64,000 nt of DNA from Ignavibacteria bacterium (lineage in GTDB: Bacteria > Bacteroidota > Ignavibacteria > Kapaibacteriales > Kapaibacteriaceae): contig CANMBE010000003.1 of assembly GCA_947495975.1 (NCBI GenBank), positions 1-64,000 of the forward strand. Direction: 5' to 3'. Position numbers and translations under genes: made by a program. Positions 7,779-52,539 of the stretch are shown here, in pieces. The notes below the pieces were generated by a model that was given only the letters and a program-made list of their open reading frames with translations, had not been told where the DNA came from and searched no databases. Position 1 is the stretch's first letter, and the number at the start of each line of letters is the position of its first letter.

Positions 7779-8546
7779 CTAGAGACCCTTCATCAGGCGA
7801 ATTCTAGCTCCAAAATCAATCATTCTCCAACTGCCACTCCCGGTTGCCGTAAGCAGGGGAATTCCTATAGAAATGGACGGGCTGAGGTAGAATCCGCTTG
7901 CAACAGAGAGATTGTAGCCAATCTGTACATATGGTTCAATCTGAAGCCGAGTGGCATCATCCAAGAACGTATTCCCCAATACCTTCACTCTGGATCGGGG
8001 ATTTTCTGTGAACAGGAAATCTGCAGGTGTAAGCACCCGCTCTTCTTGATTGAGGCTGCCACCTGCATTGAGAAGCAATCTCAATCCCCCGCCAACTGTC
8101 AAATGGGTTCCAAAAAGTCGCGTCTGCACTCCCCCTGTCAGGGCGATGTAGGTAAGAGCCCCTTCTAAAACATATTCTGTTTGCAACAACTCGCCATTTG
8201 AAAGCACAACGGGTGCCGATAGAGTATTGAACATTGCATTGAAGCGCGTAATACCCAGCCCCACAACTACGGATGTGGTTGGCGTAATCCATTGTTCGCC
8301 CGTCACACCTATTGAAAGGGGGAAACCACTTCCGGATCCATAATCACAACAAACAATTCCAACCTCTTGCTCGATGTATTCTAGCGAGCCGTAATGATGC
8401 GTATACCCCGACCCTATCTCGAGCCCGATGTATCGCTTCGGAATCTGGTACGGGGCTCTAGGCGATGTTTGCCAATCAAAACCTTGCGCATATGTCATGA
8501 TCAAACAACAATGCATGCAGATAATGATAGCTACAAAGCGTTTCAT
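7779..8546 (-). CDS. outer membrane beta-barrel protein with CC motif (cassette copy A)
   Basis: A 255-residue protein with a signal peptide (ending MTYAQ) and alternating hydrophobic strands typical of an 8-10 stranded barrel. Conserved points are VCCDYGSGSGFPLSIGV in the first third, VGGGLRLLLNAGGSLNQEE in the middle and a basic C-terminal strand (DFGARIRLMKGL). It is clearly homologous to the barrel at 46637-47488: both have the CC, a GGLRL-GGS-Q-E string and a LxPxI strand. Its start overlaps the stop of the 756-residue cargo gene by four bases (ATGA), so it is translationally coupled. I infer an outer-membrane partner for that cargo, comparable to SprF for SprB, though it is not recognisably of the SprF family. 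Confidence 0.75.
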   Translation of the reverse strand: MKRFVAIIICMHCCLIMTYAQGFDWQTSPRAPYQIPKRYIGLEIGSGYTHHYGSLEYIEQEVGIVCCDYGSGSGFPLSIGVTGEQWITPTTSVVVGLGITRFNAMFNTLSAPVVLSNGELLQTEYVLEGALTYIALTGGVQTRLFGTHLTVGGGLRLLLNAGGSLNQEERVLTPADFLFTENPRSRVKVLGNTFLDDATRLQIEPYVQIGYNLSVASGFYLSPSISIGIPLLTATGSGSWRMIDFGARIRLMKGL

Positions 8547-10813
8547 CTTCCCACCATCAGTGGCAATGGAGTGTAGACATTTCCCGAGCGGACGATGACA
8601 GTATATGCCGACGGTGGAAGATGAGCTACTGAGAATGGGATGAGATGTACACCAGCCGAAAATGATAATGGAGCAATTGATACGAATTCTCTACCAAAGG
8701 CATCTACAAGTGTAATGGAGACGGTTCGCTCTGTTGGTACAACGAGGGCTACGTTTACGTTGTCGCTCGCAGGGTTTGGGAATAATCCCGACATCATACG
8801 CAAGCCCGAACCCACAGTCTTGTATGAAAGTCCGCATAGGGAATCAAGAAAGAACTGGCCAGACTCTACTCTTACGGATAACACAGAACTGCAGCCTGCA
8901 TTGCCAAATATGGTAGCACCGTTTGTAAACGACACATCACTCGATGCAGTCTCTCCAAGAAAACTGTCGAAGATAACAGTGACAAGTGTTGATCTAGACA
9001 AGAAGTTTGTTGGTGCCTGCAGCGCAAGGCGCAACGTTCCTCGCGGCAACTCAGTGGCATCGATTACTTGTGCCCCTTCACTTGCTGTCCCTAATTGTTG
9101 AACGCTGCGATACTGCAGTAGTGACGGATTAAAGTTCATTGACAACACACATCTATCCGTTGTAGTGAGCTTGTCCGCGGTTGCCATTACATCAACAGCA
9201 ACAGCGGAACCTGGGCGAACTTTAGTCTCAAGCGGCACGCTCACAACGATACTATCCGGATTTACAACTACAGCATCGAATCGCACATCATAAGCACGAA
9301 CGAGGCTGTTCGTAAACAAGGTTATAGCCCCTGTAGTGGCACCAATTGTTTCTGGTTCGTACGTTGCCTTTACGAGCTGAGACTGCCCCGCAGCGATGCG
9401 AAATGACGGCGGGTCAATAGTAATTCGCGATGTGCCCGGCGTGATGAGAATAGAGTCCACTCTCAACTCTGCGTTACCAACGTTACGCACTGCAAAGGTG
9501 CGCTCAACAAATGATGTACATGTCTTGAGTAAGACTACCGTTCCAAAGTTGAGTGCAGAGGGAGTGACTTGAATTTGAGGACGCTGACCGAATCCTTTGA
9601 AAAACCACTGCGTTGTTTGTGCTCCATCGGGAACACCGTCAATACCACGGTCTCGCAAGTCAGTGCCAACAACAAATCGAATGCGATGATCACCACCTTC
9701 AATAGGCACAAACGACACGTCCAACGTATCAAAAGAATTTGTGCGAATAGTTGGACCACCCGCGCTTAAGAAACGTCGCACAGAATATGCTGCAGTGTCT
9801 CGCGCAATACCAACTTTTGATTCAGAGACAATACCAATGTTATTGTTGCCTTCGTTGCGGACAATGATGCGCGCTACAATACCCGTACCATCTGACGGTG
9901 TTGCACCAAAATCTACTGTATCTCCTCGTACAACAACTGGTAGCGGAACTCCTGTTGCTCCAATAAGTGTCAGTTTTTGTTCAACACCAATACCAGATAT
10001 CGTGGTAAGTACAGTATCTGACTTTGTAGTTGAATCTGGCCGGTAGACAACCAGAAAGTGCGCACTGTCTAGCCCCCTGTTATAGGGCGAGTATCGAGTT
10101 GTCCAAACAACAGAGTCTTCCGGGCTAAATTCAACACCGGGGAAAGTATCAACGATAATTTCAGATGTCCCAACAACCGTGGTCTGCATTTCGAATAGTT
10201 GCTTATCAACCTTTACACGTTTCAACATTGCGTTGTCAATTGTATATGGGATTGATGGAGCAAGGGGCATCGGGTTTACATACACTGAATCATAGCTAAT
10301 CCACGGAGTGGTGGTTGCCAGGATACTTGTGGTCTTCAATGCACGAAGCCGAAAGGTCTTGTCAAATGATGCGGCGAGTGGTGCGGTGCTGTCAACCACG
10401 CGAATGGTTAAGAGTGCTTCAACAACTCGGTCTGGTGGGAATAATGGGCTGTTAACGAATGCTCTAAATACAACTGTGAATAAGCGTGTTTCACCAGCGC
10501 GAATGAAATACGAGAGACCCTCAACACGTTCAAACTCTTCCTTGCGCGGATCTTCAGGAGGCACGCCCGGAACATTCACGATGATGTAATAGGGATCGGC
10601 ATTGGGATTTGTAGCTAGGATTCCCACCGTCGCTGGTCCCTTGTTCACAACGGTAAATGTCCGCGTTGTTGGCGACCCTTCTAGCGTTACGCCAAAATCC
10701 ATCACGGTATCCGCGCGGTTGGCATTCGAATAATACACCTCTACATTTGGTTGCGCTAGCCCAAGAGCTACACCAAACAGTAAATAGCAGAAGATGATGA
10801 AGGGGCTTTTCAT
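8543..10813 (-). CDS. large secreted protein: anchor-D-like repeats, cohesin-like domain, T9SS sorting domain
   Basis: A 756-residue protein with a signal peptide (FIIFCYLLFGVALGLAQ). Several Ig-like repeats of the choice-of-anchor D/HYDIN type follow (MDFGVTLEGSPTTRTFTVVN; DFGATPSDG; NFGTVVLLKTC). From about residue 540 to 670 comes a region resembling a cohesin fold (VVSVPLETKVRPGSAVAVDV). Then come a cysteine linker (DSLCGLSY) and a C-terminal sorting domain (LFPNPASDNVNV ... SAYTVIVRSG ... PLMVGR). It should be exported by the type IX system and attached to the surface. The chosen ATG lies 17 bases after the nuoN stop, where the signal peptide begins. It follows nuoMN but is unlikely to act in respiration. 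Confidence 0.82.
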   Translation of the reverse strand: MKSPFIIFCYLLFGVALGLAQPNVEVYYSNANRADTVMDFGVTLEGSPTTRTFTVVNKGPATVGILATNPNADPYYIIVNVPGVPPEDPRKEEFERVEGLSYFIRAGETRLFTVVFRAFVNSPLFPPDRVVEALLTIRVVDSTAPLAASFDKTFRLRALKTTSILATTTPWISYDSVYVNPMPLAPSIPYTIDNAMLKRVKVDKQLFEMQTTVVGTSEIIVDTFPGVEFSPEDSVVWTTRYSPYNRGLDSAHFLVVYRPDSTTKSDTVLTTISGIGVEQKLTLIGATGVPLPVVVRGDTVDFGATPSDGTGIVARIIVRNEGNNNIGIVSESKVGIARDTAAYSVRRFLSAGGPTIRTNSFDTLDVSFVPIEGGDHRIRFVVGTDLRDRGIDGVPDGAQTTQWFFKGFGQRPQIQVTPSALNFGTVVLLKTCTSFVERTFAVRNVGNAELRVDSILITPGTSRITIDPPSFRIAAGQSQLVKATYEPETIGATTGAITLFTNSLVRAYDVRFDAVVVNPDSIVVSVPLETKVRPGSAVAVDVMATADKLTTTDRCVLSMNFNPSLLQYRSVQQLGTASEGAQVIDATELPRGTLRLALQAPTNFLSRSTLVTVIFDSFLGETASSDVSFTNGATIFGNAGCSSVLSVRVESGQFFLDSLCGLSYKTVGSGLRMMSGLFPNPASDNVNVALVVPTERTVSITLVDAFGREFVSIAPLSFSAGVHLIPFSVAHLPPSAYTVIVRSGNVYTPLPLMVGR

Positions 10814-24016: not shown

Positions 24017-26545
24017 TTACCGTGTGATAACGAGTCGAGTACTACTCCACAGGCCGTTGGCGGAGGTCACAACCGCCTGATACACTCCCTGTTGGAGACT
24101 GGAGACGTCAATTGCAACAGAGCCAACTTCTTCCTTAGCAACAACCGCTGAAAAGAGGACCTGTTCCCCGCGAAGGTTGATAACTGAAATGGAAACTGGG
24201 GAAATCGCAAGGCTAAGATCAATGCGAGAATCTGCTGGATTTGGCCATAGAATGAGCCGCACGTTCTGCAGTGCACCTTCTGCTACCGAGACAGGTTGCA
24301 CTGTGAGGTAAACTGTGTCGGAATGAACAGTGTCGCATTGACTGCTTGCTAGGCAGAAATATCGTCCAGCATCTGACGCACGAACAGGATCAAACCGAAG
24401 CACAGCGCCAATACCCACAGAACCTTGTGTACCTACCTTGAACCATACAAATTGTGAAAGCGGCGATGTGGTGGCGCGCAGCTCGGCTGCCCCACCTTCA
24501 CGAACCATTATAGATACTGGTTTTTGTGTGAACGTTGGAACGGCTGGTATTGTGATTGTCACAACAGAAGAGGCCACAGTTTGGCCGCAACCTCCAGTGA
24601 CAAAGCATTCGTATCTACCCGGGGAAGCTAACGTGACGGTATCGAACACAAGACCGGGACCTTTTTGTGTAAGAGCTACTCCATTGCGGCGCCATGAATA
24701 CTGAATGTCAACGCCTGTTGCTCTGGTTTCCAAGACAAACCGCTTGCCCAAACATGCTGCTACCAAAGTTGGGAGAGGTTCGATAGAAACCCGAGGATCT
24801 ACTTTGACCCTATCGGGGATCGAAGAAATATGACCGCGTTCTGTAATGATTCTCATGAAGACGCCGTCGCTGCTTATCTCTTCAGGTTTTGGTCGCCATG
24901 TAAATGCCCTACCAGTTACTTGAGTGATAATCGGAGACCAGTTTATACCATCTTCAGAACGCTCAATGGTGAATGGCTCAAGTGGGCCCATTTCGATCGT
25001 GTTCCAATAAATATTGATTGATTGGCCAACACATAGACGTTCTCCACCACGGGGAGCCGTCAGATTAACTGATCCAAAAGCCCATTTTATAATGATTGCA
25101 TCATTTCTAGCGATGCCCGTCAGTTCTTCGCGATCGAGCGCAATTACTGGTGAGTTTGAGTTACCTGATACATAGAGGTCGCCGCTATCGTCAACAGTGA
25201 TTGCTGTAAGCTCATCGTCGTGAGACCAGCCAATTGTTGTGCTGAATGTGTTAACAGCTAGCCCCATTTTTACCACGAATCCATCTGTCCGGCCACGGAG
25301 CTGCGACGTTGATCCTGCGCCAATCGATGGGAGATCATCTGAGGATGTGGTGCCAACAACAATCCAGATATCATCGGTTTCGCGGAGCACTCGCGATACT
25401 CTTTCATCACCTGACCCACCAAAATATGTGGATCCCGAGAGTGACTGCCCCTTGTTCACAAAGAGACCAGCCATTACGTCAGATCCCCCACGCGTTGATG
25501 CTTGGAGTCCACCAATGATTGGCAAATCTGTGGAAGAACTTTCGCCTACGAGTATTAGCCCACCTCGAGAGTCGCTAAACACTGCTTTCCCTACATCTGT
25601 GCCGCTGCCACCGAAAAAAGTTGAGACTACAAGCTGAGCTCCATCTTGCGAAAAGACTGTTAAAACTGCATCTGTCAATCCACCGTTGTACGTCCAGTCA
25701 TACGGACGGTTCCTCTGAGTCCACCACTGTTGTGGATTCACCTTGGGATACGTTTCATAATTCGCCGATGATGTAGAACCTGCAAGAGCTACGCCACCAT
25801 CAGGCGTTAGATGTATGTCATAGAAAAAGTCATCGTTCTCACTACCGAAATATGTTGAGAACTGCACGATGGAAAGCGAGGCATCAATCTTAGAAACGAA
25901 ACCATCTGCGCCACCGTTGAAGCTACGGTCATATCCGTTATTGGTTGGGAAGCCATTACTTGACGTTGTGAATCCGCAGATATAGATGCTGCCATTACCG
26001 TCTACCGAAACATCAGTTGGGTGTTCATCATAGTTACCATTGATGTACGTTGCACGATGAAGCACGGTAAGCGATGCATCAAAAATCGCAATGAAGCCAT
26101 CAACCTCTGTGGAGTATGTTTGGCTTACTGATCCGGAACCCAACGCAAGGCCAGAAGACTGCGTTTCACCAACCAGTATAATCCTACCATTTGGATCAAC
26201 GGCAACACACGTTGCCTTGTCATCATGCTCGCCACCATAAAAAGTAAATGCCTTTAGGGTTTTGAGGTCTGGGGCTAATACTGCAACAAAGGCTTCTTGA
26301 CCGCCGGAAGTTGTGGCTTTAAAACTTGGTACAAGAACAGGTATGTCATCCGAATCCGTCCAGCCGCACACAACGATATCGCCGTTGGCCATCCTTGCAG
26401 AATTCGTTACATGCTCATTCTCTGAGCCACCAAACAACGTCCCGGCTACAAGTGGTCCGCCCCCTTCTCCAGCCTTCACTGTCGGAGCAATTGCCACGAG
26501 AAGAAGAGCCAGGAAAAGGGGGCGGATGATTGGTGTGTTTTTCAT
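24017..26545 (-). CDS. secreted SBBP-repeat/Ig-like protein with T9SS sorting domain (842 aa)
   Basis: An exported protein: signal peptide with [16 protein letters not shown], then about eight beta-propeller-like SBBP repeats with recurring strings such as [18 protein letters not shown] and [10 protein letters not shown]. From about residue 490 come Ig-like or PKD-type domains ([49 protein letters not shown]). The C-terminal sorting domain reads [16 protein letters not shown] and ends RLVITR. It is a paralogue of the next two genes but lacks their roughly 200-residue N-terminal domain. It should be displayed on the cell surface by the type IX system. Its stop is 37 bases from the sufB start. 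Confidence 0.85.
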
Positions 26546-26601
26546 TGTACGATGTAACGTTTAGCCACAAGGTCCAAACGTGACATTCATACTGAAACTT
26601 T

Positions 26602-29600
26602 TTATCGGCTAACAATCACTCGAACAAATCCAAAAACAAATCCAGCATTTACTTCAATTGAATAGACTCCTGAAGCCACGTTCGACAGTGAGATTTGTAC
26701 ATCCGTTTCATTGGAAGTAAGAGGGCCAAAGGTAAATGAACCAACAACGAGACCCCGCTCATCAAAAACTCGGGCAATGGCCCGCGAGGATTCTGCATTG
26801 AGGATTCGAATTGTCACTACGCCTGAAGTTGGCGATGGGCCACGCAACTGAATAAATTCAGATTCACATTCACCCTGATCATACACAGACGTTGATGGCG
26901 TAACAATTACTTGAGCCCAAGCTGAGATAACCTTTCCGCAGCCACCAGTGACTTCACATTTATATTCTCCAGCGTCCGCTATAGCTGAAGATGGGACTGT
27001 GTATTCAGAAGAGGTGGCGCCGGTTATGGGCGCACCATCTTTGTTCCACTGATACAATAAATCAGATCCTGAAGCACGCACGATTAGTGTGAGGGGCTTC
27101 CCTTGCTCTACCGTCTGGCTCACAGGCTCCATTGTAATAATTGTTGCCTGGGCAATTGCAAGCGTCACCGTTTGCGATGTAATGCTTGGAGTACACGCAC
27201 CAGCAACAACGCAGGAATATTGACCGACAGTTGAAGCGTCAACGGATGTAATTTCAATGGATTGAGATGTTGATCCGGCTACATCAACGCCTCCCTTTCG
27301 CCACTGGTACCGCAGTAATGATCCAGTTGCCACCACGCTCATAGTTGCCGGCTTGCCAGCACAGGCACTTGTAACTCTAGGTTGCGTTGTAATCGCAGGA
27401 GGTGCAGAAATTGTAAACGGTGTTGTGAGTTCACTGACATGCCCTCTACCCGAAGTGATACGAAGCACATACTTCCCGTTTGAAATCGCAGGTACTTTCC
27501 ATTGATACGTTCTGCCCGCTGCCGATTTGTTCACGTCAACCCAGACATTTGAACCCTCTAACGAGTACTGGATGTGAAATTTGGCGGTATCGGGAATCCC
27601 CGAGGCGGACCAAGAAATTGACTTATTAGATCCAGCACACCACGTTTCTCCACCCGCCGGTGCCGTGAGCTCTAAGAGTCCGAACGCGAATTTTGCTACA
27701 TACATGCTCCTACCAGCAGCATATTTCCGGTAAGAAGAGTCAACAGTTCTCATATCTGACGATGTGGTATGTGCACCGAAATACAGATCGCCAACTGGGT
27801 TTACAGCCACGCAACGGATGGTGTCAGTTGCATTTCCGGAGATGAGTGTTGAGAAAATATTCGTGGCCGTATTGATCAGAGAGATAAATCCGTCCGTTGC
27901 TCCAGCGCGGACTCCTGTTGCTCCTTCGCCCATGATTGGATAATCATTTGACGCTGTAGTTCCATAAATCACAGCGTTTGTTGGCGATAGAGATTGGCGA
28001 ACCCCAAACGCCTCGTCTCGCCCCGTTCCACCGAAATACGTTGCGCTATTGAGATCCCGCCCATCATCTGCAAGCACAGCCAAGAATATGTCTTGGCTTC
28101 CAAAATACTGGGTAAACAGTGAACCGATAGTTTCAAGATTTGGCGAGGTTGTATTGCCAACTACATGAGCGCGGCCCAAATCATCCACAAATATTCCTCT
28201 GCCTTCTTCTTCGCCACTACCACCAAGAAACGTTGAATATGTGCCGTCGTCCGATTTTGCAAGGGCTAACTCATTGTTGAGTTTTACAACGAAGGCATCA
28301 GTGATTCCACCGTTAAACGTGCGGTCATAAGGAACCCGACCAGTTGTAAATCGATCGGAAGTAGGAGCCGTTTCGAAGTTTGCCGAGGTAGTAGCACCTG
28401 TGAGGAAAACACTACTTGATGCATCAACCGCCATAGCGGTAAAAAATTCGATGCCTTCGCGCCCAAAGAATCGAGACTGTTGAATGGAGCCATTTGGTGA
28501 GAATGAGGCAATGAACCCGTCAGTTTGCCCCATGTTTGCCCCACCCCCTGGATCATCCCTGTAGGTAACAGGATCTTGTGGGCGTCTGCCAGGAATAGTA
28601 ATGCGAATCGTTATCGGAAAAGTAACGGGAAAATTTGTTGTGGAACTTGTACTGCCGGCTACATAGATAAGCCCATTTTTATCCACAGAGATTGCACGGG
28701 CTATATCTTCTTTATTTCCGCCATGGTAGAAACCCACGATGAGTTTCGTGAGCGTTGAATCAATCTTCGCAACAAAAGCATCAGCTCCTGCTTTATATAG
28801 CTTTCCTGTGGCCCCGGACGTTGTAGGGAAGTCATTTGCAAAGGTTTCTCCAGCTACATAAATGTTATTCGATGCATCCCTTGTTATGGATCGAATTCTA
28901 TCGTCACTTGAACCGCCAATAAAGGTATAGGTTCGTACAGTCTGGAGCTTGGAATCAAAGCGCACAACAAACCCATCGGATGTGCCCTTTATAGCTGTTG
29001 AATATCCGCCAGTGCTTCCTGGGTACTCCATGCTCGTAGTGGTGCCCGCCGCTACTACGTCGCCATTTGTTAAATAGACGAGGCCCGTCAGAACGTCCGA
29101 ATACGTACCGCCAAAGTATGAGCCATACACGGTAGATGTGATGGGAGATACGTCTAAAGATTTATGTCCACTACCACTTAGTATCTCGTAAGAGATTTTT
29201 GAAACGTCTGCTCCTTCTCGCACCAATACGGATCTGTTGACCCTTCCGTCCGAGCCACACGTGTATGTAAAGGTTACTCCAGGATAATAATTTACTAGTG
29301 CCACGGTTTTATACACGGGCGCGCTAAACCAGTTCTTAGGATCGGATCCTTTGATAAAAGAAACCTGAGAAACTGCTGTTCCCAAGGAGACGTGTAGTTG
29401 AGGATTTACGCCACTAAATGCTTCCTGGATAACATTTCCAGTTCTTTCCTGGCTCTCGGTTGAAGTCTGATACTCGTCAAGGACAACACCTGTCCTCGTG
29501 ATCCAGACATCAGCACCATTTTGGCGCACGAAAAAAAGCACTTCTGACGGCCATTGTCCTACATTGGAAATGAAGCCAACGAGGTTAGGGTGAACATCTG

Positions 29601-29688
29601 TGTTTGCATATCCCGACGAAGGCAATGCACAAATGAGTAGCGTGAATAGTGCAAATAGCCGAATGATGGATTCTGTCAAAACATTCAT
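26602..29688 (-). CDS. secreted DUF7948/SBBP-repeat/Ig-like protein with T9SS sorting domain (1028 aa)
   Basis: A surface protein built as: signal peptide; an N-terminal domain opening FISNVGQWPSEVLFFVRQ and ending before residue 200 (recalled as DUF7948); SBBP repeats (GTYSDVLTGLVYLTNGDVVA, FIGGSSDDRI, YHGGNKEDIA, FLGGSGEEEG, YFGGTGRDEA); an Ig-type module (APAGGETWCAGSNKSISW); two Ig-like domains with paired cysteines (VTSACAGKPATMSV; QTVEQGKPLTLIV); and a C-terminal sorting domain (FIQLRGPSPTSGVVTI ... GVYSIEVNAG ... IVSR). A strong Shine-Dalgarno, AGGAGGT, precedes the start. It is closely related to the next gene upstream, so tandem duplication is likely. Confidence 0.87.
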   Translation of the reverse strand: MNVLTESIIRLFALFTLLICALPSSGYANTDVHPNLVGFISNVGQWPSEVLFFVRQNGADVWITRTGVVLDEYQTSTESQERTGNVIQEAFSGVNPQLHVSLGTAVSQVSFIKGSDPKNWFSAPVYKTVALVNYYPGVTFTYTCGSDGRVNRSVLVREGADVSKISYEILSGSGHKSLDVSPITSTVYGSYFGGTYSDVLTGLVYLTNGDVVAAGTTTSMEYPGSTGGYSTAIKGTSDGFVVRFDSKLQTVRTYTFIGGSSDDRIRSITRDASNNIYVAGETFANDFPTTSGATGKLYKAGADAFVAKIDSTLTKLIVGFYHGGNKEDIARAISVDKNGLIYVAGSTSSTTNFPVTFPITIRITIPGRRPQDPVTYRDDPGGGANMGQTDGFIASFSPNGSIQQSRFFGREGIEFFTAMAVDASSSVFLTGATTSANFETAPTSDRFTTGRVPYDRTFNGGITDAFVVKLNNELALAKSDDGTYSTFLGGSGEEEGRGIFVDDLGRAHVVGNTTSPNLETIGSLFTQYFGSQDIFLAVLADDGRDLNSATYFGGTGRDEAFGVRQSLSPTNAVIYGTTASNDYPIMGEGATGVRAGATDGFISLINTATNIFSTLISGNATDTIRCVAVNPVGDLYFGAHTTSSDMRTVDSSYRKYAAGRSMYVAKFAFGLLELTAPAGGETWCAGSNKSISWSASGIPDTAKFHIQYSLEGSNVWVDVNKSAAGRTYQWKVPAISNGKYVLRITSGRGHVSELTTPFTISAPPAITTQPRVTSACAGKPATMSVVATGSLLRYQWRKGGVDVAGSTSQSIEITSVDASTVGQYSCVVAGACTPSITSQTVTLAIAQATIITMEPVSQTVEQGKPLTLIVRASGSDLLYQWNKDGAPITGATSSEYTVPSSAIADAGEYKCEVTGGCGKVISAWAQVIVTPSTSVYDQGECESEFIQLRGPSPTSGVVTIRILNAESSRAIARVFDERGLVVGSFTFGPLTSNETDVQISLSNVASGVYSIEVNAGFVFGFVRVIVSR

Positions 29689-29800
29689 AATACCTCCTGA
29701 TTTGCCTGATTTTTACCGAACAAGTGAAGTGCCTGCATTGTGCTGCTCCATTGCGATATACTCATTAGAAATTGCCCTTTCTGCGATAGGGCTCACTAGA

Positions 29801-41699: not shown

Positions 41700-44600
41700 A
41701 TGAATCTCTTTCGACTGCCCTTCCTCATATGCTTGTTCATTGCCATAGCGCTTGCAACGTCTGCCGCCGGCACATCACCCTCAACAAAGAAGGGGCACAA
41801 CACACCTCCGGCGTTTGAGACCAATGTTGGCCAAGCGCGCTTCAGCAATGATGTTGACGGCTCCTATGTTGATGCCGTCATTCGTGTGAATGGGGTGATG
41901 GCCTACGTGCACAAGGGAGGCCTCCACATGCTCCAAACTCGAATCTCCAAGGATCCTACCTCACCAAAACATGAACCCGAGTATGAAGTGGATGCATTCC
42001 GAGTGGACATGCAATTACTTGCGAGCAACCCTTCGCCCCGTCTTGAATGGGTGCGCAAAGAATTGGGAATTGTCCGCTATCTCCTGCCAGGAACGGATGC
42101 AAATGGCTTGGTTGCAGAAAGGTACAACGCAATGGTCTACCACGATGTGTGGCCAGGGATCGATTTGCGTATGAACGTCAACACACAGGGAGTGAAGTAC
42201 GACTTCCTGGTGCATCCTGGAGCCAACCCGGAACAAATTGCATTTCAATATGTAGGGGGCTCAGCACCAATAGTTACATCTACTGGTGACCTTGAAATCA
42301 CAACTCCCCTAGGTTCAATTGGTGAACAAGCCCCATATGTTTTTGAGTCTTTAAAAAGTGGTGCACCTGGCAAGGTAATCCCTACTTCATTCGCTGTACG
42401 TGGGCACTCTGTAAGATTCAATGTTGGTGATTATGATAGAGCGTCAACATTAGTTGTAGACCCCCAACGGGTATGGGGCACGTATTACGGCTTTAATCAA
42501 AACATTGAAGCCCCGCGCATTGCAGCAGATCTCATTGGAAATATTTACACCAGTGGCTCAACAACAGCAACAAACATGCCCAGCATTCCTGGTGTTTTGC
42601 AACGCATCAATAGTGGAAGCTTTGATGGCTTTGTTGCAAAATTTAGTGCCACTGGCGACTTCTTGTGGCACACCTATTATGGTGGTTCGAATAACGACCG
42701 AATTCGTGATGTCACAACGGATGCACAGGGGAACGTTTGGACCTGCGGGCAAACAAATTCAGCAGATCTGCCTCTCCTTGCTGTTGGTAGCGGACCATAT
42801 GGCGATTGGGATTCAGTTCAAGGTGCCGAGGCTTTTGTCTTAAAGCTTACACCCAAAGGTGCCTGGTCAGATTCGTGGCAGGTATATGGCTCTCAAAGTG
42901 ACGTTGCTACCGGGATTGCTGTGAGTGCAACAGCCATCGCCATTGTAGGGTATACACGCAGTCCAAAACTTGGCGGTCTCTTTGGTGACCAGCCATATCG
43001 CAAGGACCCAACGAGTTTTAGCAACAACACGGACATGTTTGTTAGCGTAGTAAAACCAAAGACAAACGACACTACACGATGGATGAATAGTTATGTGATT
43101 TATTACGGCGGAGGGGGCGAAGACTTTGGCTACCGAATCGCTTTTGATTCTGTTGGCAATGTGATTTTTGGTGGCATCACCTATTCATCGAATTTTCCGG
43201 TGACAGACGGGACTGCTTACAAAGGCCTTGAGGATATTGCCGTTGTCAAGTTTGGGCCAACACCAGTCCGCCAATGGGCTACGATGTTCGGGTCAGATTC
43301 TTTCGAAACGTTTGGCGATCTCTCAGTTGATGTAACTGGAGCCACGGTTGTAGTTGGGACTACTGTGGGTACAAATTTTCCAACACTTACTCCACTACAA
43401 GCGAATAAGGCAACCGGACCTCGTGCAAGCGGATTTATTCGGAAACTGGGCGCAAACGGAATTGCACAATGGTCAACCTATTATGGAAGCGATTCCATTT
43501 GTGGACTGAATGGCGTAGCAACTGATAAATCAAACAATGTTTGGATTGCAGGTTACACGAATCGTGCGCCAAACATTCCAATTACAAGTGATGCGTTTCA
43601 ACCTCTACCAAATGGCTCAATCAATTTTGACGGATACTTCGCAAAAATTAATCCGACGGGAAGCACTGTTCTCTATGGATCATTTCATGGATCGCCCCCT
43701 CAAGACCCTCCACCGGGATTTCCGAGCCCACCAGCGAATTCCGATTTTGGAGGAGACGAGCTGAGTGATATCGTCTGCGAAGGCAATGCCTACGTTACTG
43801 TTGTTGGACTCGTTACTTCACTTCGGATGGATACCACTGCAGGTGCATACCAAGATTCATCCGATCTATTCAAAGACCCAATTCGGGCGAATGATTTTAT
43901 CTCGTATTTCAGCAACTGCAAAGATTCAGTCATTACGATTATTCCTAATGGATCATCTACGCTTTGTGGCGTTGACTCTCGACAGCTTTTAGCAACCGCC
44001 GGCTTTGATAGGTATCTCTGGTCTACTGGCGCAACAACTCGTTCCATTGTTGTTGTAGACTCGGGCAGTTATTCCGTACTAGCCACAACTCTTGATGGAT
44101 GCCGTTACAGAGATACGATCTTCATTAGTCGCAATGCAAAGCCGATTGTTTCGGCGGGTCCCGATACATCGGCGTGTTTGAATGTACCAATTCAGATAAC
44201 GGCTACACCGGGCAGTGGGAAAGCCCCTTTCAAATACAAATGGAATCGTATTGAAGCCGGTCCGGACTTTATAGATAATGACACGTTGCAATCGCCAAAC
44301 GTAAACCCAAGTGCTACGTCGCGGTATGAAGTGATAGTCACCGATTCATCTGGCTGCATTGCTAAGGACACACTTCTTGTAACACTGATCACGCCAAAAC
44401 CAACATTCGCTCCCGTGATGGTGGATTTTGCTGCTCTTGATGCTTGCGCATCATCTGCTGAACAAGAGATTACGATTACGAATCCAATGCCGTATGAAGT
44501 TCGCATCAGCGGCTTTACCCCAGATAATCCACGGTTGAGTTTAGTGACATCCCTAATACCGCCAATCAGTGTTGCACCAAACTCAAGTGTTAAACTTCGA

Positions 44601-46637
44601 GTGCGAATCACGCCAACTGTTTCTGGAGTAACGGTAGGAACTTTTGTTGTGTCTGGCACTCCATGTGCGTGGATTGGGAACTTCTCCTATCAGGTAGACA
44701 AACAACAACTTTCTGCTACGGTCACACCTGGCAATGTTGGATTTGGTGCAGGGGTGATCTGCGAGCAAGGGGCAAAGACTGATTCAGCTATCATTAGAAA
44801 TGGTGGAACATCGGTACTTGTGTTGCAGCCAGGGGTTGTTCTCGCCCCCTTCACAATCGTTTCGCCAACGAGCGCAGTTAGCCTTGATCCCGGCAAGGGG
44901 CAGGTTGTATACTTCCGTTATACGCCTACTGGTGCAGGTGCGTTTTCTGATGTAGCCAAGTTTCCATTTACCGTTGGAGCATGTTCAGATACGCTCCGTG
45001 TAAATCTCAATGCATTTACTTCTGTCGTAACTGTTACGGCATCGCCAACAACGATTGATGTAGGAACACTTTCTGGATGTGAAAGCGAACGAGACACTCT
45101 GATTACCATTAACAATACATCTTCAGTAGCTGTTGTTGTAACGCTCCCAGGAACGGCCGAAGTGGTCTTCACACCTCCAGGTCCGATTTCTATTCCGTCG
45201 CGCTCCTCGGTTGGCGTGCGTGTTGCAATTCGTCCATCCGTATCCGGTGCGTTTACACAAACAACAACACTTGTTGCAGAACCATGTAGCGTGAGCATCC
45301 CAGTCTCATTCTTAGCTCAGAAGAATGGCATTGCTTTTACGACGCCACCTTCAATTGACTTTGGTGAATTTTCTACGTGCACAGCAGCATCAACGTCTTC
45401 GCGTTCTGCGTCGCTCTCATTTGATGGCACGGGCACGGCAGCCATTGCAAGTGTTGTATCGGGCTCATCGATTACGTCATCACTTGTATCGGGGCAAACG
45501 CTAACGCCCGGCCAAGCTGTAAACTTTGCCGTGGTCTGGACGCCAACAGCAGAAGGTCCACTCGTTGACAGTGTCGTTGTCGTCTTTGAGCCTTGCAGCG
45601 TAAGACGAGTTATTCGCCTCAGTGGGACGCGTACACGCCCTTCCTTGCGTGCAGACAACCCCTCCATTGCACTTGGCACTGTTCCCGGCACTGCTACAGG
45701 AACGGTTCGTTTTACCAACGATGGCTCTGACACACTTAGCATTGCAATAACATCGCGATCGGTCAACACCATCTTTACTGCAACACGTCCGGTAGCACTC
45801 GGTGCTATCCTTCCTGGTGAACAAATCGAAGTTGACTATCAAGTCAACTGCGCGGGTCGATCTTCTTTTGTCGATTCCATTGAGGCCGCAATTGCAGCAC
45901 CATGCGGAGCAAGTGCGTTTAGCTCATTCACTGGTACGTGCACTACATCAGGTAAAGCACAGAGCAATATTGTCATTGACACTGCAGCCGTAAAGGTTGG
46001 AGACACGTTTACCGTGCCAATGCGCATTGTTTCATCGAGTGGGCTGAACAGCAACAACCTGCGGGCCTGGACAGCAGATGTAACCTATAATCCGATGGTG
46101 GTTGTGGGTGTTGGTACAACACCAGATTGTTTTGTGGCCGGACAGTTCACACCATGCACAATCTCTATCAACGGCGCCCGAGGCAATGACACAGTTGGGA
46201 CTCTCTATTCTCTCAACTTCACAGCGGTGCTTGGAACCACGGACGTAACCATGCTTACGCTCACAAATTTTGTGTGGACAGCGATGCCTTCCGCACAGGT
46301 CACCACTCGTGATGGCAAGGTTGTAATCACAGACATCTGCCGCGAGGGCGATGACCGCTTTCTTACGCCAAAGGCAAGTGGATTTTCTATAAGCGTATTC
46401 CCAACACCTGCTTCAGTCAACATGACGATTGATGTGAAGGGGGCAGGCACAAGCCCCATACCGTGGAGATTGTCAAGCTTTGTTGGGTCTGATGTAGTGA
46501 GCGGCACAATTGCTCCTGATGCCGATGGCACTGACGTAGCAATCGTTGATGTGCGCTCGTTGAGCGCTGGACTGTATCTCCTCACTATGGATGCACGAGG
46601 TACGACGTATCGTAGCACCGTGCTCATTCAACGCTGA
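41700..46637 (+). CDS. giant secreted protein: DUF7948/SBBP, anchor-D repeats, cohesin-like domain, T9SS sorting domain
   Basis: A 1645-residue surface protein. A signal peptide (FLICLFIAIALATSAAG) precedes a DUF7948-type domain (FETNVGQARF to TLVVDPQRVWG) and SBBP repeats (YYGGSNNDRIRDVT, YYGGGGEDFGY). A PKD-like stretch (GSSTLCGVDSRQLLATAG) is followed by five or more anchor-D-like repeats, each with a cysteine (DALDACASSAEQEI-type strings; IDVGTLSGCESERDTLI; IDFGEFSTCTAAS). A cohesin-like region (VIDTAAVKVGDTFTVPMRI) and ITDICREGD lead to a sorting domain (ISVFPTPASVNMTID ... GLYLLTMDARG ... VLIQR). It starts where the signal peptide begins (41700) and is coupled by TGATG to a small barrel gene. 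It lies divergent from gldL. Confidence 0.86.
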   Translation: MNLFRLPFLICLFIAIALATSAAGTSPSTKKGHNTPPAFETNVGQARFSNDVDGSYVDAVIRVNGVMAYVHKGGLHMLQTRISKDPTSPKHEPEYEVDAFRVDMQLLASNPSPRLEWVRKELGIVRYLLPGTDANGLVAERYNAMVYHDVWPGIDLRMNVNTQGVKYDFLVHPGANPEQIAFQYVGGSAPIVTSTGDLEITTPLGSIGEQAPYVFESLKSGAPGKVIPTSFAVRGHSVRFNVGDYDRASTLVVDPQRVWGTYYGFNQNIEAPRIAADLIGNIYTSGSTTATNMPSIPGVLQRINSGSFDGFVAKFSATGDFLWHTYYGGSNNDRIRDVTTDAQGNVWTCGQTNSADLPLLAVGSGPYGDWDSVQGAEAFVLKLTPKGAWSDSWQVYGSQSDVATGIAVSATAIAIVGYTRSPKLGGLFGDQPYRKDPTSFSNNTDMFVSVVKPKTNDTTRWMNSYVIYYGGGGEDFGYRIAFDSVGNVIFGGITYSSNFPVTDGTAYKGLEDIAVVKFGPTPVRQWATMFGSDSFETFGDLSVDVTGATVVVGTTVGTNFPTLTPLQANKATGPRASGFIRKLGANGIAQWSTYYGSDSICGLNGVATDKSNNVWIAGYTNRAPNIPITSDAFQPLPNGSINFDGYFAKINPTGSTVLYGSFHGSPPQDPPPGFPSPPANSDFGGDELSDIVCEGNAYVTVVGLVTSLRMDTTAGAYQDSSDLFKDPIRANDFISYFSNCKDSVITIIPNGSSTLCGVDSRQLLATAGFDRYLWSTGATTRSIVVVDSGSYSVLATTLDGCRYRDTIFISRNAKPIVSAGPDTSACLNVPIQITATPGSGKAPFKYKWNRIEAGPDFIDNDTLQSPNVNPSATSRYEVIVTDSSGCIAKDTLLVTLITPKPTFAPVMVDFAALDACASSAEQEITITNPMPYEVRISGFTPDNPRLSLVTSLIPPISVAPNSSVKLRVRITPTVSGVTVGTFVVSGTPCAWIGNFSYQVDKQQLSATVTPGNVGFGAGVICEQGAKTDSAIIRNGGTSVLVLQPGVVLAPFTIVSPTSAVSLDPGKGQVVYFRYTPTGAGAFSDVAKFPFTVGACSDTLRVNLNAFTSVVTVTASPTTIDVGTLSGCESERDTLITINNTSSVAVVVTLPGTAEVVFTPPGPISIPSRSSVGVRVAIRPSVSGAFTQTTTLVAEPCSVSIPVSFLAQKNGIAFTTPPSIDFGEFSTCTAASTSSRSASLSFDGTGTAAIASVVSGSSITSSLVSGQTLTPGQAVNFAVVWTPTAEGPLVDSVVVVFEPCSVRRVIRLSGTRTRPSLRADNPSIALGTVPGTATGTVRFTNDGSDTLSIAITSRSVNTIFTATRPVALGAILPGEQIEVDYQVNCAGRSSFVDSIEAAIAAPCGASAFSSFTGTCTTSGKAQSNIVIDTAAVKVGDTFTVPMRIVSSSGLNSNNLRAWTADVTYNPMVVVGVGTTPDCFVAGQFTPCTISINGARGNDTVGTLYSLNFTAVLGTTDVTMLTLTNFVWTAMPSAQVTTRDGKVVITDICREGDDRFLTPKASGFSISVFPTPASVNMTIDVKGAGTSPIPWRLSSFVGSDVVSGTIAPDADGTDVAIVDVRSLSAGLYLLTMDARGTTYRSTVLIQR

Positions 46638-47488
46638 TGAAAGACCTACCTATGAACCTTCGCAATGCTTTGACTGTATCGGCAATCCTCGTGTTTTCTG
46701 CCTTTGCAGCAGTTGCGCAAGAAACCATTTCGCAAGAGGCTCCTATAAAGCCAGAAGCACCCGTTACAATCGTGCGTCAAGCTATGCGTGCTTTTTCAAT
46801 CGGTCTCACCGGTGCTTATGGGATTATGCTCAATAGTGCCGACCAATTTTCATTGCCAACCGTGCCAACGTGTTGTCCGGGGTATTCTTCTACAAGTGGA
46901 GGCGGCTTTATTGGTGGCGTAGAGCTTAACCTTCCGTTGTCTGACAAGTTAGACCTCGTTGCCAGACTCGTTTTCCAATCATCATCATCAACGTTTGTGA
47001 CTGACGAGCCCACAACGCTGCGTGTGGGAAATCAAGCAATCGAAACGGCTTTCCGGCATACCCTTGAGACGCAGGCTTCCTTCCTGATGTTGGAGCCGAT
47101 GCTTGACTACCAAATTACTGGTGGTCTTTCTCTCATTGGCGGATTAAGACTTGGGACCTCGGTAGGGGGCTCATATGACCAGAGGGAAACGTTCGCAGAC
47201 CCAACACTTCCCTATGACTTTACGGGAGGCGCGTCTGTGCGCAATGCGAGCTCTGGCGACCTACCAAACCAAAGCAGTTTCCAAATGGGCCTCGTCCTTG
47301 GCGCTCGGTATCAACTGCCGTTGAACGTAGCGGGGACAATGTCTCTTGTTCCTGAGATAACCTTCTCACCAATGTTCACCAATGTAGTATCAGACGCCAC
47401 ATGGAAGATTTCCCCAATCCGCCTCGGATTGTCGGTTTTGTTCGATGTAATGCGCTTTGAGCAACAAGCGTCGCCCTTGAGTCCGTAA
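46637..47488 (+). CDS. outer membrane beta-barrel protein with CC motif (cassette copy B)
   Basis: A 283-residue exported protein homologous to the barrel at 7779-8546. Shared features are the double cysteine (PTCCPGYSSTSGGGFIGGV), the segment GGLSLIGGLRLGTSVGGSYDQRE, the GLVLGARY and LVPEITFSP strands and a final aromatic strand (LSVLFDVMRF). The signal peptide (ALTVSAILVFSAFAAVAQ) follows a few residues. The ATG at 46637 shares its A with the stop of the 1645-residue cargo gene (TGATG); an in-frame ATG at 46652 is an alternative. I infer an outer-membrane partner of that cargo. Confidence 0.76.
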   Translation: MKDLPMNLRNALTVSAILVFSAFAAVAQETISQEAPIKPEAPVTIVRQAMRAFSIGLTGAYGIMLNSADQFSLPTVPTCCPGYSSTSGGGFIGGVELNLPLSDKLDLVARLVFQSSSSTFVTDEPTTLRVGNQAIETAFRHTLETQASFLMLEPMLDYQITGGLSLIGGLRLGTSVGGSYDQRETFADPTLPYDFTGGASVRNASSGDLPNQSSFQMGLVLGARYQLPLNVAGTMSLVPEITFSPMFTNVVSDATWKISPIRLGLSVLFDVMRFEQQASPLSP

Positions 47489-47499
47489 CTTGGTTGGCT

Positions 47500-49068: not shown

Positions 49069-49110
49069 AGGTTCCGTATCGTTGAGAACAATCATGGAGT
49101 TTACCGCAGG

Positions 49111-52100
49111 ATGACTGTGAGATTGCGTTACATCGTTACGTTCATCGTTATTGCTCTAACAGCACTAACCGTGCGCTCGCAAACATCCATCGGCGATATC
49201 GTCAATGCCTACGCCCCGGTCACAAGCATCATGGAGGCAAACTGCGCTTCCCATGTAACGGTGCCGTCTGCGGCTGAATTCAATCCAAAAGATCTTGTCC
49301 TCGTCATTCAAATGAAGGGGGCTTTCCAGAGCGGACAATACAATACGCAGGGCGTAGGGCTCTATGAGTTTGCCGTTATTACCTCGATAACCGGTAACAC
49401 AATCGATCTTTCCTATCCGCTATTGAACCAGTATGATGTTAGTGGTCGAGTGCAAATTGTGCGTGTTCCGATCTATGCGGATGCAGACGTAACCGTGCCA
49501 CTGCGTGGTGGTCCATGGGATGGTTCTTCAGGAGGCGTCATTGCTATAGATGTGCGCGGTACACTTCGGCTCAATGCGAACATCGTTGCTGATGGCATTG
49601 GCTTTCGTGGAGGTAGCACGTGGCGTGGCGGCGGAACGTGTTCCACAATGACTGCGAATGATGGGATCAATAGCCAAACAGCTGCAATGAAGGGCGAAAC
49701 ATTCGTTGAACCACAAGCGATGAATGTATCCGGGAGGCAGGAACTTTTCTCTGGTGGCGGTGGTGGCGTTGCACACAATTCCGGTGGCGGTGGCGGTGGC
49801 AATGGCGGTGCAGGCGGACGTGGTGGCGCTCAATGGGAAGGTTGTACGAGTTTCTTTGACAATGGTGGCCTCGGTGGTGTAAGCGCTCCGGCTATCGTTG
49901 GAGCCACTCCACGCATGCGTTGTGGTGGCGCTGGTGGTGCCGGACAAGTAAATAACGACGTTGGTACTGGCGGTGCAAATGGCGGTGGAATAATCGTCAT
50001 TCGCTGCATCACACTTGGTGGTAGTGGTCGGCTAATTTCTGCAAATGGTGATAGCCCCCTTGCAGATGCACAAAATGATGCCGCAGGTGGAGGGGGCGCT
50101 GGCGGATCTGTCATGCTTATGACGCAGTTTGTTGCAGGTGGCGTTTTTGTTGATGTACATGGTGGACGTGGTGGAAACGTTCGCACGGGGTCAATGCACG
50201 GGCCCGGTGGTGGCGGTGGAGGTGGGTCCTTCTTTTTCTCTGCGCCAAACCCTATTGCTGGGTTAACATTTTCTGTTGCTGCTGGTACGAATGGTCGCAA
50301 CGTAAACAAGACAAGCGCAGTAGACCAATCGTATCTAGCTAGTCCAGGCAATGACGGGCAAAGCTCTTTCGGGATCGCCATTCTCCAGAACAAGGGTCAA
50401 TTCCCTGCCCTCAGTGTAAAGGCACCTGCAGATACTGTTGTTTGTTCTGGCATGCCGATGAATTTGATTGCAACAACCACCGGCACTTTTCAAAGTGTTG
50501 TATGGACGTTGATCAACGGAACAGTAGTTGGAACCACTACTGATCTTCGATTCAAAGCAACGTCAACGCAGAGATACATTGTCTCAATCACAGACGACTA
50601 TGGATGCGTGGTTCGAGATACCGTGCAAGTGAGCGTACACAACCAATGGGTTATGGACTTCCCAAATGTCAATCTTACGGCCGCAAGCTGTACGTCAAAA
50701 ATCGACACTGCGCTGTGGCTGTTCAACAACTCTCTCACGAATGCAACGATCACTAGCGTTACGTCACCGTCTGCCGGCGCTATCATTATATTTACAGCGC
50801 CCATTCTTTTGAAGCCCGGCGAACGATATCGCATACCAGTTGAGCTAACACTCCCTACGAATGGTACACTCATAACTACACGTATTGATGCTACAATCAC
50901 TCCATGTGATACAATGGTTTCAGCAGACATTGTTGTTCGGCGCAATGATCGTGTATTTGGAGTAACCCCAACACAGATTGCTATGGAGTCCATTGTTGTG
51001 TGCACGGCTACAATGCGAGACACCACCGTCAACTTTCTTTTCGCGGGGGCAAGTGTAGAAATAATTGACATTATTGAATCTGGCACCAGTCGGGTAACGT
51101 CAACCAAGCGGTTCACCACTGCTGCTGGTGTTGCAGTACCAGTAGATCTTGAGTGGCTACCAACCGTTGGCGTTACTGCAGGACAAATCGGCTTTGTTGT
51201 GCGTGACGGGGCATGTCTCGATACACTCTGGGTAGACATGAACGGCCCCGTAACTCAACCACACATCAACGTTACCTCTGCAGTTGATGTAAGCACACTT
51301 ATTCTCTGTGAGAATTCTCGCGCAGAGGTTGACGTTGAGTTTACGTCAGCAGATACAACCACATGGGAAGTTGTTGACGTTACTATTGTTGGAAGTGCAA
51401 CATCCGATCTTGTTCAAGGTGCACGATTTGTTAGCCGAAAGATAGTTCGTGTAGATGTTGTGCCATCGCAGGTGGGACCGTATGAGATTGTGATGACAGT
51501 CCGTTTGCAACCGTGTGACACAACCGTAACCGTGCGTATACGCGGCAATGCTCTGAACGTGAATTCGAGTGGCACTCCGCTCTTAACGTTCACCGAGCGT
51601 ATTGTTGGTAGACGTAAAACGTTGCGGGCAATCTATAGTAATACTGGCACTGCAGATCTGCACGTTGAAAACGTTCGCCCACCGCAAGCCCCTTTTTCAG
51701 TGATTGGTACCACGCCGGCGGTACCGTGTACACTTGTACCAGGACAACAGCTTTCTGTTGATGTTGAGATCCTGCAGCAAGTTGGCATTCATAGGGACAG
51801 CGTTGTTGTAACTATTGACACACCATGTCTGGGTACGCTTACAACACAACTTGAGTCAGAAGCAACAGCCCGAACCGTAATAGCTATGCCAGATATCATT
51901 TCTGGAATTGGCGTGCGAGACACAGTACCCGTAATACTCTTGCGACTCCCAGAGATTGACAGCACTCTTCTTGGAGAGTTCCGGGTTAGCGTTGAATGGA
52001 ACGCAAGAGAGCTTAGTGTTACGTCAGGTTCCGATGCACGATCCACGTGGACTTCACAACGAGTGGGATCGAAATTTGTGACAGACATTGTAGGCACATG

Positions 52101-52539
52101 GACTGGCTCAGATACACTGGCGCTGATTCCAGTAGCAACTCTACTATCTACATCGGCTGTCACGGATTTGTTGTTTGTTCGAGACCCTGCCTTCGTGTGG
52201 ACTGGGCAAGTGTCTGAAGTTGAATATGATGATGGCACGCTCATCATTGCAGACCCATGCTCAGGACGTAACATCCGATCTGTTCTCTTCAACGGAATTG
52301 GCGTACTGAGAGCAGAGCCCCTTCCCACACGAGAAGCCTTAACAATTCGCCTTGATGATGAGCGTATTCACACCATCCATCTCGAGATTGTAGATGTACT
52401 TGGTCATGTTGTACTATCGCAAACTGCAACTCTTCAGCGCGAGCTAGCGCTTGATGTTGCGCAATTATCCGCAGGCACCTATATGCTGCGAGCTACCATC
52501 GCTGGCGAGATACGCGTAGTTGCAATTATTGTGCAATAA
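49111..52539 (+). CDS. secreted glycine-rich/anchor-D protein with cohesin-like and T9SS sorting domains
   Basis: A 1142-residue surface protein. After a signal peptide (FIVIALTALTVRSQ) the first 400 residues hold a glycine-rich domain with runs such as SGGGGGVAHNSGGGGGG, packed between beta-strands (GVIAIDVRGTLRLNANI). A PKD-like region (ADTVVCSGMPMNLIA) follows. Then come anchor-D-like repeats with single cysteines, a cohesin-like region (GVRDTVPVILLRLPEID), a cysteine linker (ADPCSGRN) and a C-terminal sorting domain (AEPLPTREALTIRL ... GTYMLRATIAG ... IIVQ). The middle-to-end order matches the 756- and 1645-residue cargos. No barrel gene follows; the pirin gene converges on it. Confidence 0.84.
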   Translation: MTVRLRYIVTFIVIALTALTVRSQTSIGDIVNAYAPVTSIMEANCASHVTVPSAAEFNPKDLVLVIQMKGAFQSGQYNTQGVGLYEFAVITSITGNTIDLSYPLLNQYDVSGRVQIVRVPIYADADVTVPLRGGPWDGSSGGVIAIDVRGTLRLNANIVADGIGFRGGSTWRGGGTCSTMTANDGINSQTAAMKGETFVEPQAMNVSGRQELFSGGGGGVAHNSGGGGGGNGGAGGRGGAQWEGCTSFFDNGGLGGVSAPAIVGATPRMRCGGAGGAGQVNNDVGTGGANGGGIIVIRCITLGGSGRLISANGDSPLADAQNDAAGGGGAGGSVMLMTQFVAGGVFVDVHGGRGGNVRTGSMHGPGGGGGGGSFFFSAPNPIAGLTFSVAAGTNGRNVNKTSAVDQSYLASPGNDGQSSFGIAILQNKGQFPALSVKAPADTVVCSGMPMNLIATTTGTFQSVVWTLINGTVVGTTTDLRFKATSTQRYIVSITDDYGCVVRDTVQVSVHNQWVMDFPNVNLTAASCTSKIDTALWLFNNSLTNATITSVTSPSAGAIIIFTAPILLKPGERYRIPVELTLPTNGTLITTRIDATITPCDTMVSADIVVRRNDRVFGVTPTQIAMESIVVCTATMRDTTVNFLFAGASVEIIDIIESGTSRVTSTKRFTTAAGVAVPVDLEWLPTVGVTAGQIGFVVRDGACLDTLWVDMNGPVTQPHINVTSAVDVSTLILCENSRAEVDVEFTSADTTTWEVVDVTIVGSATSDLVQGARFVSRKIVRVDVVPSQVGPYEIVMTVRLQPCDTTVTVRIRGNALNVNSSGTPLLTFTERIVGRRKTLRAIYSNTGTADLHVENVRPPQAPFSVIGTTPAVPCTLVPGQQLSVDVEILQQVGIHRDSVVVTIDTPCLGTLTTQLESEATARTVIAMPDIISGIGVRDTVPVILLRLPEIDSTLLGEFRVSVEWNARELSVTSGSDARSTWTSQRVGSKFVTDIVGTWTGSDTLALIPVATLLSTSAVTDLLFVRDPAFVWTGQVSEVEYDDGTLIIADPCSGRNIRSVLFNGIGVLRAEPLPTREALTIRLDDERIHTIHLEIVDVLGHVVLSQTATLQRELALDVAQLSAGTYMLRATIAGEIRVVAIIVQ

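Follow-up and report, generated by a model that had tools for sequence, protein, structure and literature searches.

The window analysed here, a stretch of 64,000 nucleotides from an Ignavibacteria bacterium, contains two cassettes in which the gene for a large T9SS cargo runs directly into the gene for an outer-membrane barrel. This arrangement raises the question of what the barrel does for its neighbour: does it export the cargo, hold it at the cell surface, or merely share its regulation? The features of the two cassettes are as follows (coordinates within the window).

7779..8546, − strand: barrel P0001, 255 aa, stand-alone, 8-stranded by prediction, with a signal peptide and without OmpA domain (family profile E 5e-78)
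8346..8351, − strand: twin cysteine Cys66-Cys67 of P0001 (family alignment columns 67-68), placed in extracellular loop 1 by homology, with topology from the P0002 model
8543..10813, − strand: T9SS cargo P0003, 756 aa, with signal peptide, anchor-D/ASH domains, linker motif and type A sorting domain
8834..8836, − strand: linker cysteine Cys660 of P0003 (SGQFFLDSLCGLSY)
8546..8800, − strand: type A C-terminal sorting domain of P0003 (PF18962 E 4e-4 and TIGR04183 E 2e-3, both below cut-off; lineage profile E 3e-21)
41700..46637, + strand: T9SS cargo P0004, 1645 aa, with DUF7948, SBBP beta-propeller, ASH domains, cohesin, linker motif and type A sorting domain
45960..46328, + strand: predicted cohesin-fold domain of P0004 (tail model pLDDT 91.6; VIA Z 11.5, rmsd 2.5 over 117 aa to cohesin 4uyp)
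46338..46340, + strand: solitary linker cysteine Cys1547 of P0004 (GKVVITDICREGDDRF), between cohesin and sorting domain
46380..46634, + strand: type A C-terminal sorting domain of P0004 (TIGR04183 E 5e-4 on the tail; lineage profile)
46637..47488, + strand: barrel P0002, 283 aa, stand-alone, 8-stranded by prediction (model pLDDT 90.4, OmpA Z 17.8)
46871..46876, + strand: twin cysteine Cys79-Cys80 of P0002, in loop 69-85, predicted extracellular loop 1
49111..52539, + strand: CTD cargo of 1142 aa, the second gene downstream of P0002, with a variant of the linker motif (DDGTLIIADPCSGRNIRSVL) and without a barrel of its own

Both cassettes were found as the initial annotation had described them, with matching open reading frames, lengths and overlaps; the span 41700-47488 given there covers cargo P0004 and barrel P0002 together. 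The stop codon of P0003 and the start of P0001 share four bases (ATGA), and the final base of the P0004 stop codon is also the first base of P0002 (TGATG). The proposed homology of the two barrels also holds: BLASTP gave 23% identity at E 4e-4, and the family profile is decisive. The shared CC pair, Q-x-E pair and L-x-P-x-I strand were recovered, with GGLRL and GGS being less general across the family. The likeness of the cargos extends to their anchor-D/ASH domains and type A sorting domains, and the cohesin domain ascribed to both was found in P0004. End-to-end homology of P0003 and P0004 was ruled out (E 0.1); DUF7948 and the SBBP propeller, which occupy the N-terminal part of P0004, have no counterpart in P0003.

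The 1142-aa cargo is possibly a further client, which would share barrel P0002 in trans. In this region (window 47494-52539, + strand), the gene between P0002 and the cargo encodes what we take by eye to resemble peptide chain release factor 3. Loci L116 and L138 have a gene of 520-530 aa at the same place between barrel and motif-bearing cargo. Elsewhere in the window (24017-32977, − strand), three successive large T9SS cargos of 842, 1028 and 1058 aa have neither adjoining barrels nor the linker motif; the last two have similar ends, which are Ig-like.

P0001 and P0002 belong to a single profile family that includes nine other proteins of the source genome, and a profile search of this genome (2.18 Mb, 24 contigs) returned 16 family members. 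Each of the 40 genomes of the order, from 21 genera, contained the family, with 10-37 copies. Across 296 sampled genomes of the phylum, 40 had matches to the barrel profile at E<=1e-10; outside the order, families f16 and f18 of the same class had 7-8 scored barrel copies, and the other positives were single weaker matches. The barrels had been called small, which does not apply to the majority: most members form the N-terminal part of proteins of 630-730 aa with OmpA domains in the C-terminal half, which is an OmpA-type architecture. PF00691 scored over cut-off in five of the six fused members scanned, four of them with two stretches, and below it in the sixth (L018, E 0.002). Stand-alone barrels, including P0001 and P0002, contain no PF00691 OmpA domain. 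Positions Q182, E184, P189, P239, W256 and C79/C80 (P0002 numbering) are near-invariant across the family. Clear membership in a known unrelated porin family was not observed: the match to PF13568 (OMP_b-brl_2; 48 of 81 members at E<=0.01) is weak and generic, P0002 scoring 23.8 bits against a cut-off of 27 and one member, L022, exceeding it with 29.3 bits.

The structure of P0002 was predicted from 81 aligned sequences. The model is an 8-stranded barrel (pLDDT 90.4) whose nearest solved folds are OmpA, OmpW and NspA, with OmpA as the closest (VIA Z 17.8, rmsd 2.6 over 166 residues). FadL chains ranked far down among the Foldseek matches, at TM values of about 0.2, and were not counted as evidence. 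A sequence search against the PDB returned no match over cut-off, and no relation to solved OmpA barrels was detectable. By OmpA topology, residues 69-85, 131-132, 187-214 and 244-255 are predicted to form the extracellular loops. The C-terminus would be periplasmic in this model, consistent with the OmpA domains that follow in fused members. Loop 69-85, which holds the twin cysteine, is on average the most conserved segment of P0002. The model of the P0004 tail displays the cohesin domain, a lower-confidence linker starting at tail Cys147 and a separate C-terminal beta domain, which in this prediction corresponds to the type A sorting domain.

Gene order was assayed for 174 non-redundant barrels from 40 neighbourhoods and additional shorter loci. 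A detected CTD cargo lay directly upstream on the same strand for 118 of them, and four more direct neighbours (L117, L207, L216 and L254) were recognized by eye through their motif, giving 122/174; another 11/174 had a CTD cargo only downstream. The majority of the homologues therefore adjoin sorting-domain genes, and the initial view of the barrels as dedicated partners of T9SS cargos is borne out at the level of gene order. The association peaks at the neighbouring position: a CTD gene was found at −1 in 42/62 barrel loci, against approximately 3-4 of 50 (about 7%) at −2 to −5. In the source genome, 11 of the 16 barrels have a CTD gene at −1 (binomial P ~1e-10, on a background of about 115 CTD genes among approximately 1900 genes, the latter number being assumed from genome size). 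These approximately 115 type A sorting-domain genes would represent roughly 6% of the 2.18-Mb genome's genes if there are about 1900; the barrel-paired cargos are therefore a minority of them. The commonest exception to the order is an operon consisting of nth, a barrel/OmpA gene, a cargo of 1440-1466 aa, a second barrel/OmpA gene and a glycosyltransferase, the identities of nth and of the glycosyltransferase being our assignment by eye. It occurs in L016 (5609-17215), L105, L108, L110, L112, L114 and L118. Behind the L016 operon lies a further 669-aa protein with a motif-like end and a truncated sorting domain.

Could these barrels be members of the known carrier families? Among the 40 genomes of the order, SprA was over cut-off in 39, PorV in 40 and the sortase PorU in 38, with PorU profile matches in all 40. 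PorP/SprF (TIGR03519) was over cut-off in none of these 40 genomes, and neither was the type B CTD (TIGR04131). The TIGR03519 profile served as its own positive control, scoring over cut-off in 69 of the 296 phylum genomes. Thus, the known dedicated carrier system appears to be missing from the order, with the barrel family in its place. The barrels themselves gave no match over cut-off to PorP/SprF or to PorT/SprT (NF052311): one of 81 reached E 0.002 with TIGR03519 and one of 81 reached E 0.001 with NF052311. The cargos appear to be of type A, not of the type B class that a system like SprB-SprF implies: 42 of 57 cargo tails matched TIGR04183 at E<=0.01, and the window cargos gave E 4e-4 to 0.03 with TIGR04183/PF18962, below the curated cut-off, and strong matches with the lineage profile. 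The proposal of a SprB-SprF-like system with a different barrel family is thus partly retained: a family other than PorP/SprF does occupy the place where PorP/SprF was expected, but the cargos appear to be type A and PorV is present.

The twin cysteine of the barrels falls in model columns 67-68, occupied by cysteine in 141/162 and 151/172 barrels. All 16 stand-alone barrels with the CC pair lack any other cysteine in the mature chain. On the cargo side, a linker motif, G-x-L-x-L-x-x-x-C-x-x-G-G-x-R-L (dGxLxLxxiCxxGGxRL), lies between cohesin and type A sorting domain, and 107 of the 115 paired-cargo tails that were aligned carry its cysteine. The motif was detected in 111/125 paired and 16/75 unpaired cargos (Fisher 2e-4 in the source genome, 2e-11 in its relatives); the unpaired sample is not random, because paired cargos had been used to seed the CTD profile and the unpaired set comprises the top-scoring CTD matches. 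Several of the 16 motif-bearing cargos counted as unpaired sit in barrel loci. An internal partner for the motif cysteine was considered and rejected: the commonest upstream cysteine ("PC") is part of the preceding ASH domain, within which it probably pairs, and cohesin has no conserved cysteine.

The cysteine numbers of the two partners are reciprocal. Barrel/cargo pairs with 2/1 cysteines predominate (79), followed by 1/2 (18), 2/2 (10), 2/0 (4), 1/1 (3) and 0/0 (3). With a kinship correction that is coarse only, the Fisher value of 6e-11 for the raw numbers becomes 1e-4, 0.06 and 0.045 after clustering by barrel identity at 50%, 40% and 35%, respectively; at 40%, significance is lost, which counts against the disulfide. 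A rule of always three thiols is weakened by the 2+2, 2+0 and 1+1 pairs. Cysteines are also lost together: the four directly adjacent barrels without cysteine (L020, L124, L253 and L254) all have cargos without the motif cysteine (Fisher ~1e-5). After the same coarse clustering, and leaving out L254, co-loss gave p ~0.01 at 35%, 8e-4 at 40% and 6e-4 at 50%. In the L254 pair, the barrel reads PNSSPGF (CC to SS) and the cargo GLFTLAGVSTAGSVRLI (C to S); the L253 cargo has changed C to N, reading GLFRLTGLNQVGGPWRFF. There are counter-examples. The orthologous group L018, L192, L198, L205 and L211 combines a CC barrel with a cargo reading ..RI..PDPxRR without motif cysteine, and in L245 a barrel without cysteine has a cysteine-bearing cargo one gene away. 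Altogether, the matched cysteines in barrel and cargo sequences suggest that the partners are bolted together by a disulfide.

These results were weighed against three other explanations. In the one favoured by the initial annotation, the barrel is a SprF-like export carrier, which would replace PorV at SprA, extract its own cargo and remain bound to it, the cysteines serving as a lock. One barrel per cargo, encoded directly downstream with overlapping genes, is an arrangement that recalls type B pairs such as sprB-sprF (PMC12618676), and PorP/SprF is nowhere over cut-off in the order. However, PorV, PorP and SprF are reported to be 14-stranded barrels of FadL type (PMC9143113), whereas the barrels studied here are predicted to be 8-stranded and of OmpA type, and their cargos carry the type A sorting domains that use PorV, which is present in 40/40 genomes. 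Docking to SprA as an export carrier, in the manner of SprF or PorV, is thus hypothetical and, given the predicted barrel type, structurally less likely than anchoring after export. We regard the export carrier as unlikely.

The linker motif might instead be mainly a processing site, with a PorU-type or other Arg-specific protease cutting C-x-x-GG-x-RL and the new cysteine-bearing C-terminus becoming joined to the barrel or some other group at the surface. PorU, a gingipain-like enzyme of family C25, has profile matches in every genome of the order, and the motif, with its GG and Arg, stands just ahead of the sorting domain. Yet all type A cargos would need processing, while the motif is largely limited to barrel-paired ones, and cleavage alone does not predict the co-loss of cysteines in barrel and cargo. 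We therefore consider this improbable as the main role, although processing at the motif as an added step is compatible with anchoring. Finally, the cysteines could make homotypic links, in oligomers of barrels or of cargos, with the pairing of the genes reflecting no more than shared regulation of envelope proteins. In P. gingivalis and T. forsythia, OmpA proteins do make disulfide-linked oligomers (PMC12635249), but co-loss and reciprocal cysteine numbers run across the two partners, most unpaired cargos lack the motif, and barrel and cargo are adjacent throughout the order; homotypic linkage seems to us just as improbable as the processing site.

The explanation we prefer, and hold to be the probable one, is that each barrel is a dedicated outer-membrane partner that anchors the neighbouring T9SS cargo through a disulfide between the twin cysteine of loop 1 and the cargo cysteine, with the OmpA tails resting on peptidoglycan. 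From what was observed or predicted (the family, gene pairing, motif association, cysteine co-variation, fold and topology, and the absence of PorP/SprF) we infer the physical binding, the disulfide, the peptidoglycan binding, that anchoring follows export, and whatever part the barrel may have in export. The cargo would cross the outer membrane by the SprA/PorV type A route, using its type A sorting domain. Its linker, with the solitary-cysteine motif C-x-x-GG-x-RL, would then meet extracellular loop 1 of the barrel, where the twin cysteines would form the disulfide with the linker cysteine. In fused members, the barrel would continue into two periplasmic OmpA domains holding peptidoglycan. 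The usual handlers of type A cargos (PorV, which takes them, and PorU, which processes them) are both present in the order; this counts against anchoring by the barrel, as do the approximately 40 barrels without adjacent cargo. Moreover, the vicinal cysteines of the barrel could ring-close into a disulfide of their own. We put forward more tentatively, and at somewhat less than even chances, the wider proposal of an undescribed mode of attachment, in which a disulfide bolts each type A cargo to loop 1 of its own OmpA-type barrel while OmpA tails grip the cell wall, and which replaces LPS attachment and the PorP/SprF carriers across the order.

By analogy, the barrel-cargo pair probably works like a PorP/SprF pair. 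It is not one, as judged by profile, predicted strand number and cargo class. The closest parallel is PorP-PorE with the type B CTD protein PG1035 of Porphyromonas gingivalis, where the PorP barrel anchors the T9SS-exported surface protein (PMC9143113) and PorE binds peptidoglycan through a periplasmic OmpA-type domain, characterized with a peptidoglycan fragment (PMC7192894). In contrast, barrel and OmpA domains form here one polypeptide, so that a single protein would do the work of PorP plus PorE; the stand-alone members P0001 and P0002 would then be the counterpart of SprF without PorE. The present system differs further from PorP-PorE-PG1035 in its predicted 8-stranded OmpA-type barrel, its type A cargo with cohesin, its conserved cysteine pairing and the lack of any PorP homologue over cut-off. 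The SprF-SprB and other PorP/SprF-type B pairs of Flavobacterium johnsoniae likewise have a large cargo gene followed by a dedicated barrel gene, with several pairs per genome and some cargos without adjacent barrel (PMC12618676), but their barrels are of another family and size and their sorting domains are type B. Mobile adhesins have been proposed for SprF-type carriers (PMC9143113).

Disulfides between barrels and their partners are known on the periplasmic side. SprF carries a twin cysteine (CXC) in its periplasmic C-tail and exchanges a disulfide with GldK, and PorG does likewise (PMC12635249), whereas the CC pair studied here is predicted to lie in extracellular loop 1. PorG is also an 8-stranded outer-membrane T9SS protein with cysteine for an intermolecular disulfide (PMC12635249), as inferred for the present barrels; its cysteine is in the periplasmic C-tail, and it differs from these multicopy, cargo-paired proteins. 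OmpA shares with the fused members the N-terminal 8-stranded barrel (predicted here) and C-terminal OmpA domain(s), but the present family has no detectable sequence relation to solved OmpA barrels, and has a twin-cysteine loop, two OmpA domains and pairing with T9SS cargo genes.

Most of what is known about T9SS carriers and anchors comes from Flavobacteriia and Porphyromonas, in which PorP/SprF serve the type B cargos. In the order of the phylum studied here, PorP/SprF is nowhere over cut-off and a different barrel family has expanded, mostly beside type A cargos. In the open-access literature, searched by lineage and by architecture, we found no description of the barrel-cargo architecture or of disulfide anchoring of secreted proteins to barrels. 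If the disulfide link is right, a simple sequence rule would predict which cargos stay surface-bound and which barrel holds them, and the barrel-partner disulfides recently reported for T9SS and gliding would extend from the periplasm to the cell exterior.

A search for related loci with a fused member gave one true relative (MAG SZAS-90, L071), the other matches being to the C-terminal OmpA-domain part. In L225 (2204-5168), one cargo is followed by tandem barrels, a stand-alone one and then a fused one without cysteine. In L102 (7475-9832, − strand), a 785-aa protein encoded directly downstream of a 260-aa CTD protein combines an IgGFc_binding domain (PF17517, E 1e-74) with a weak match to the barrel family at its C-terminus, and is possibly a natural fusion of adhesion domain and barrel.
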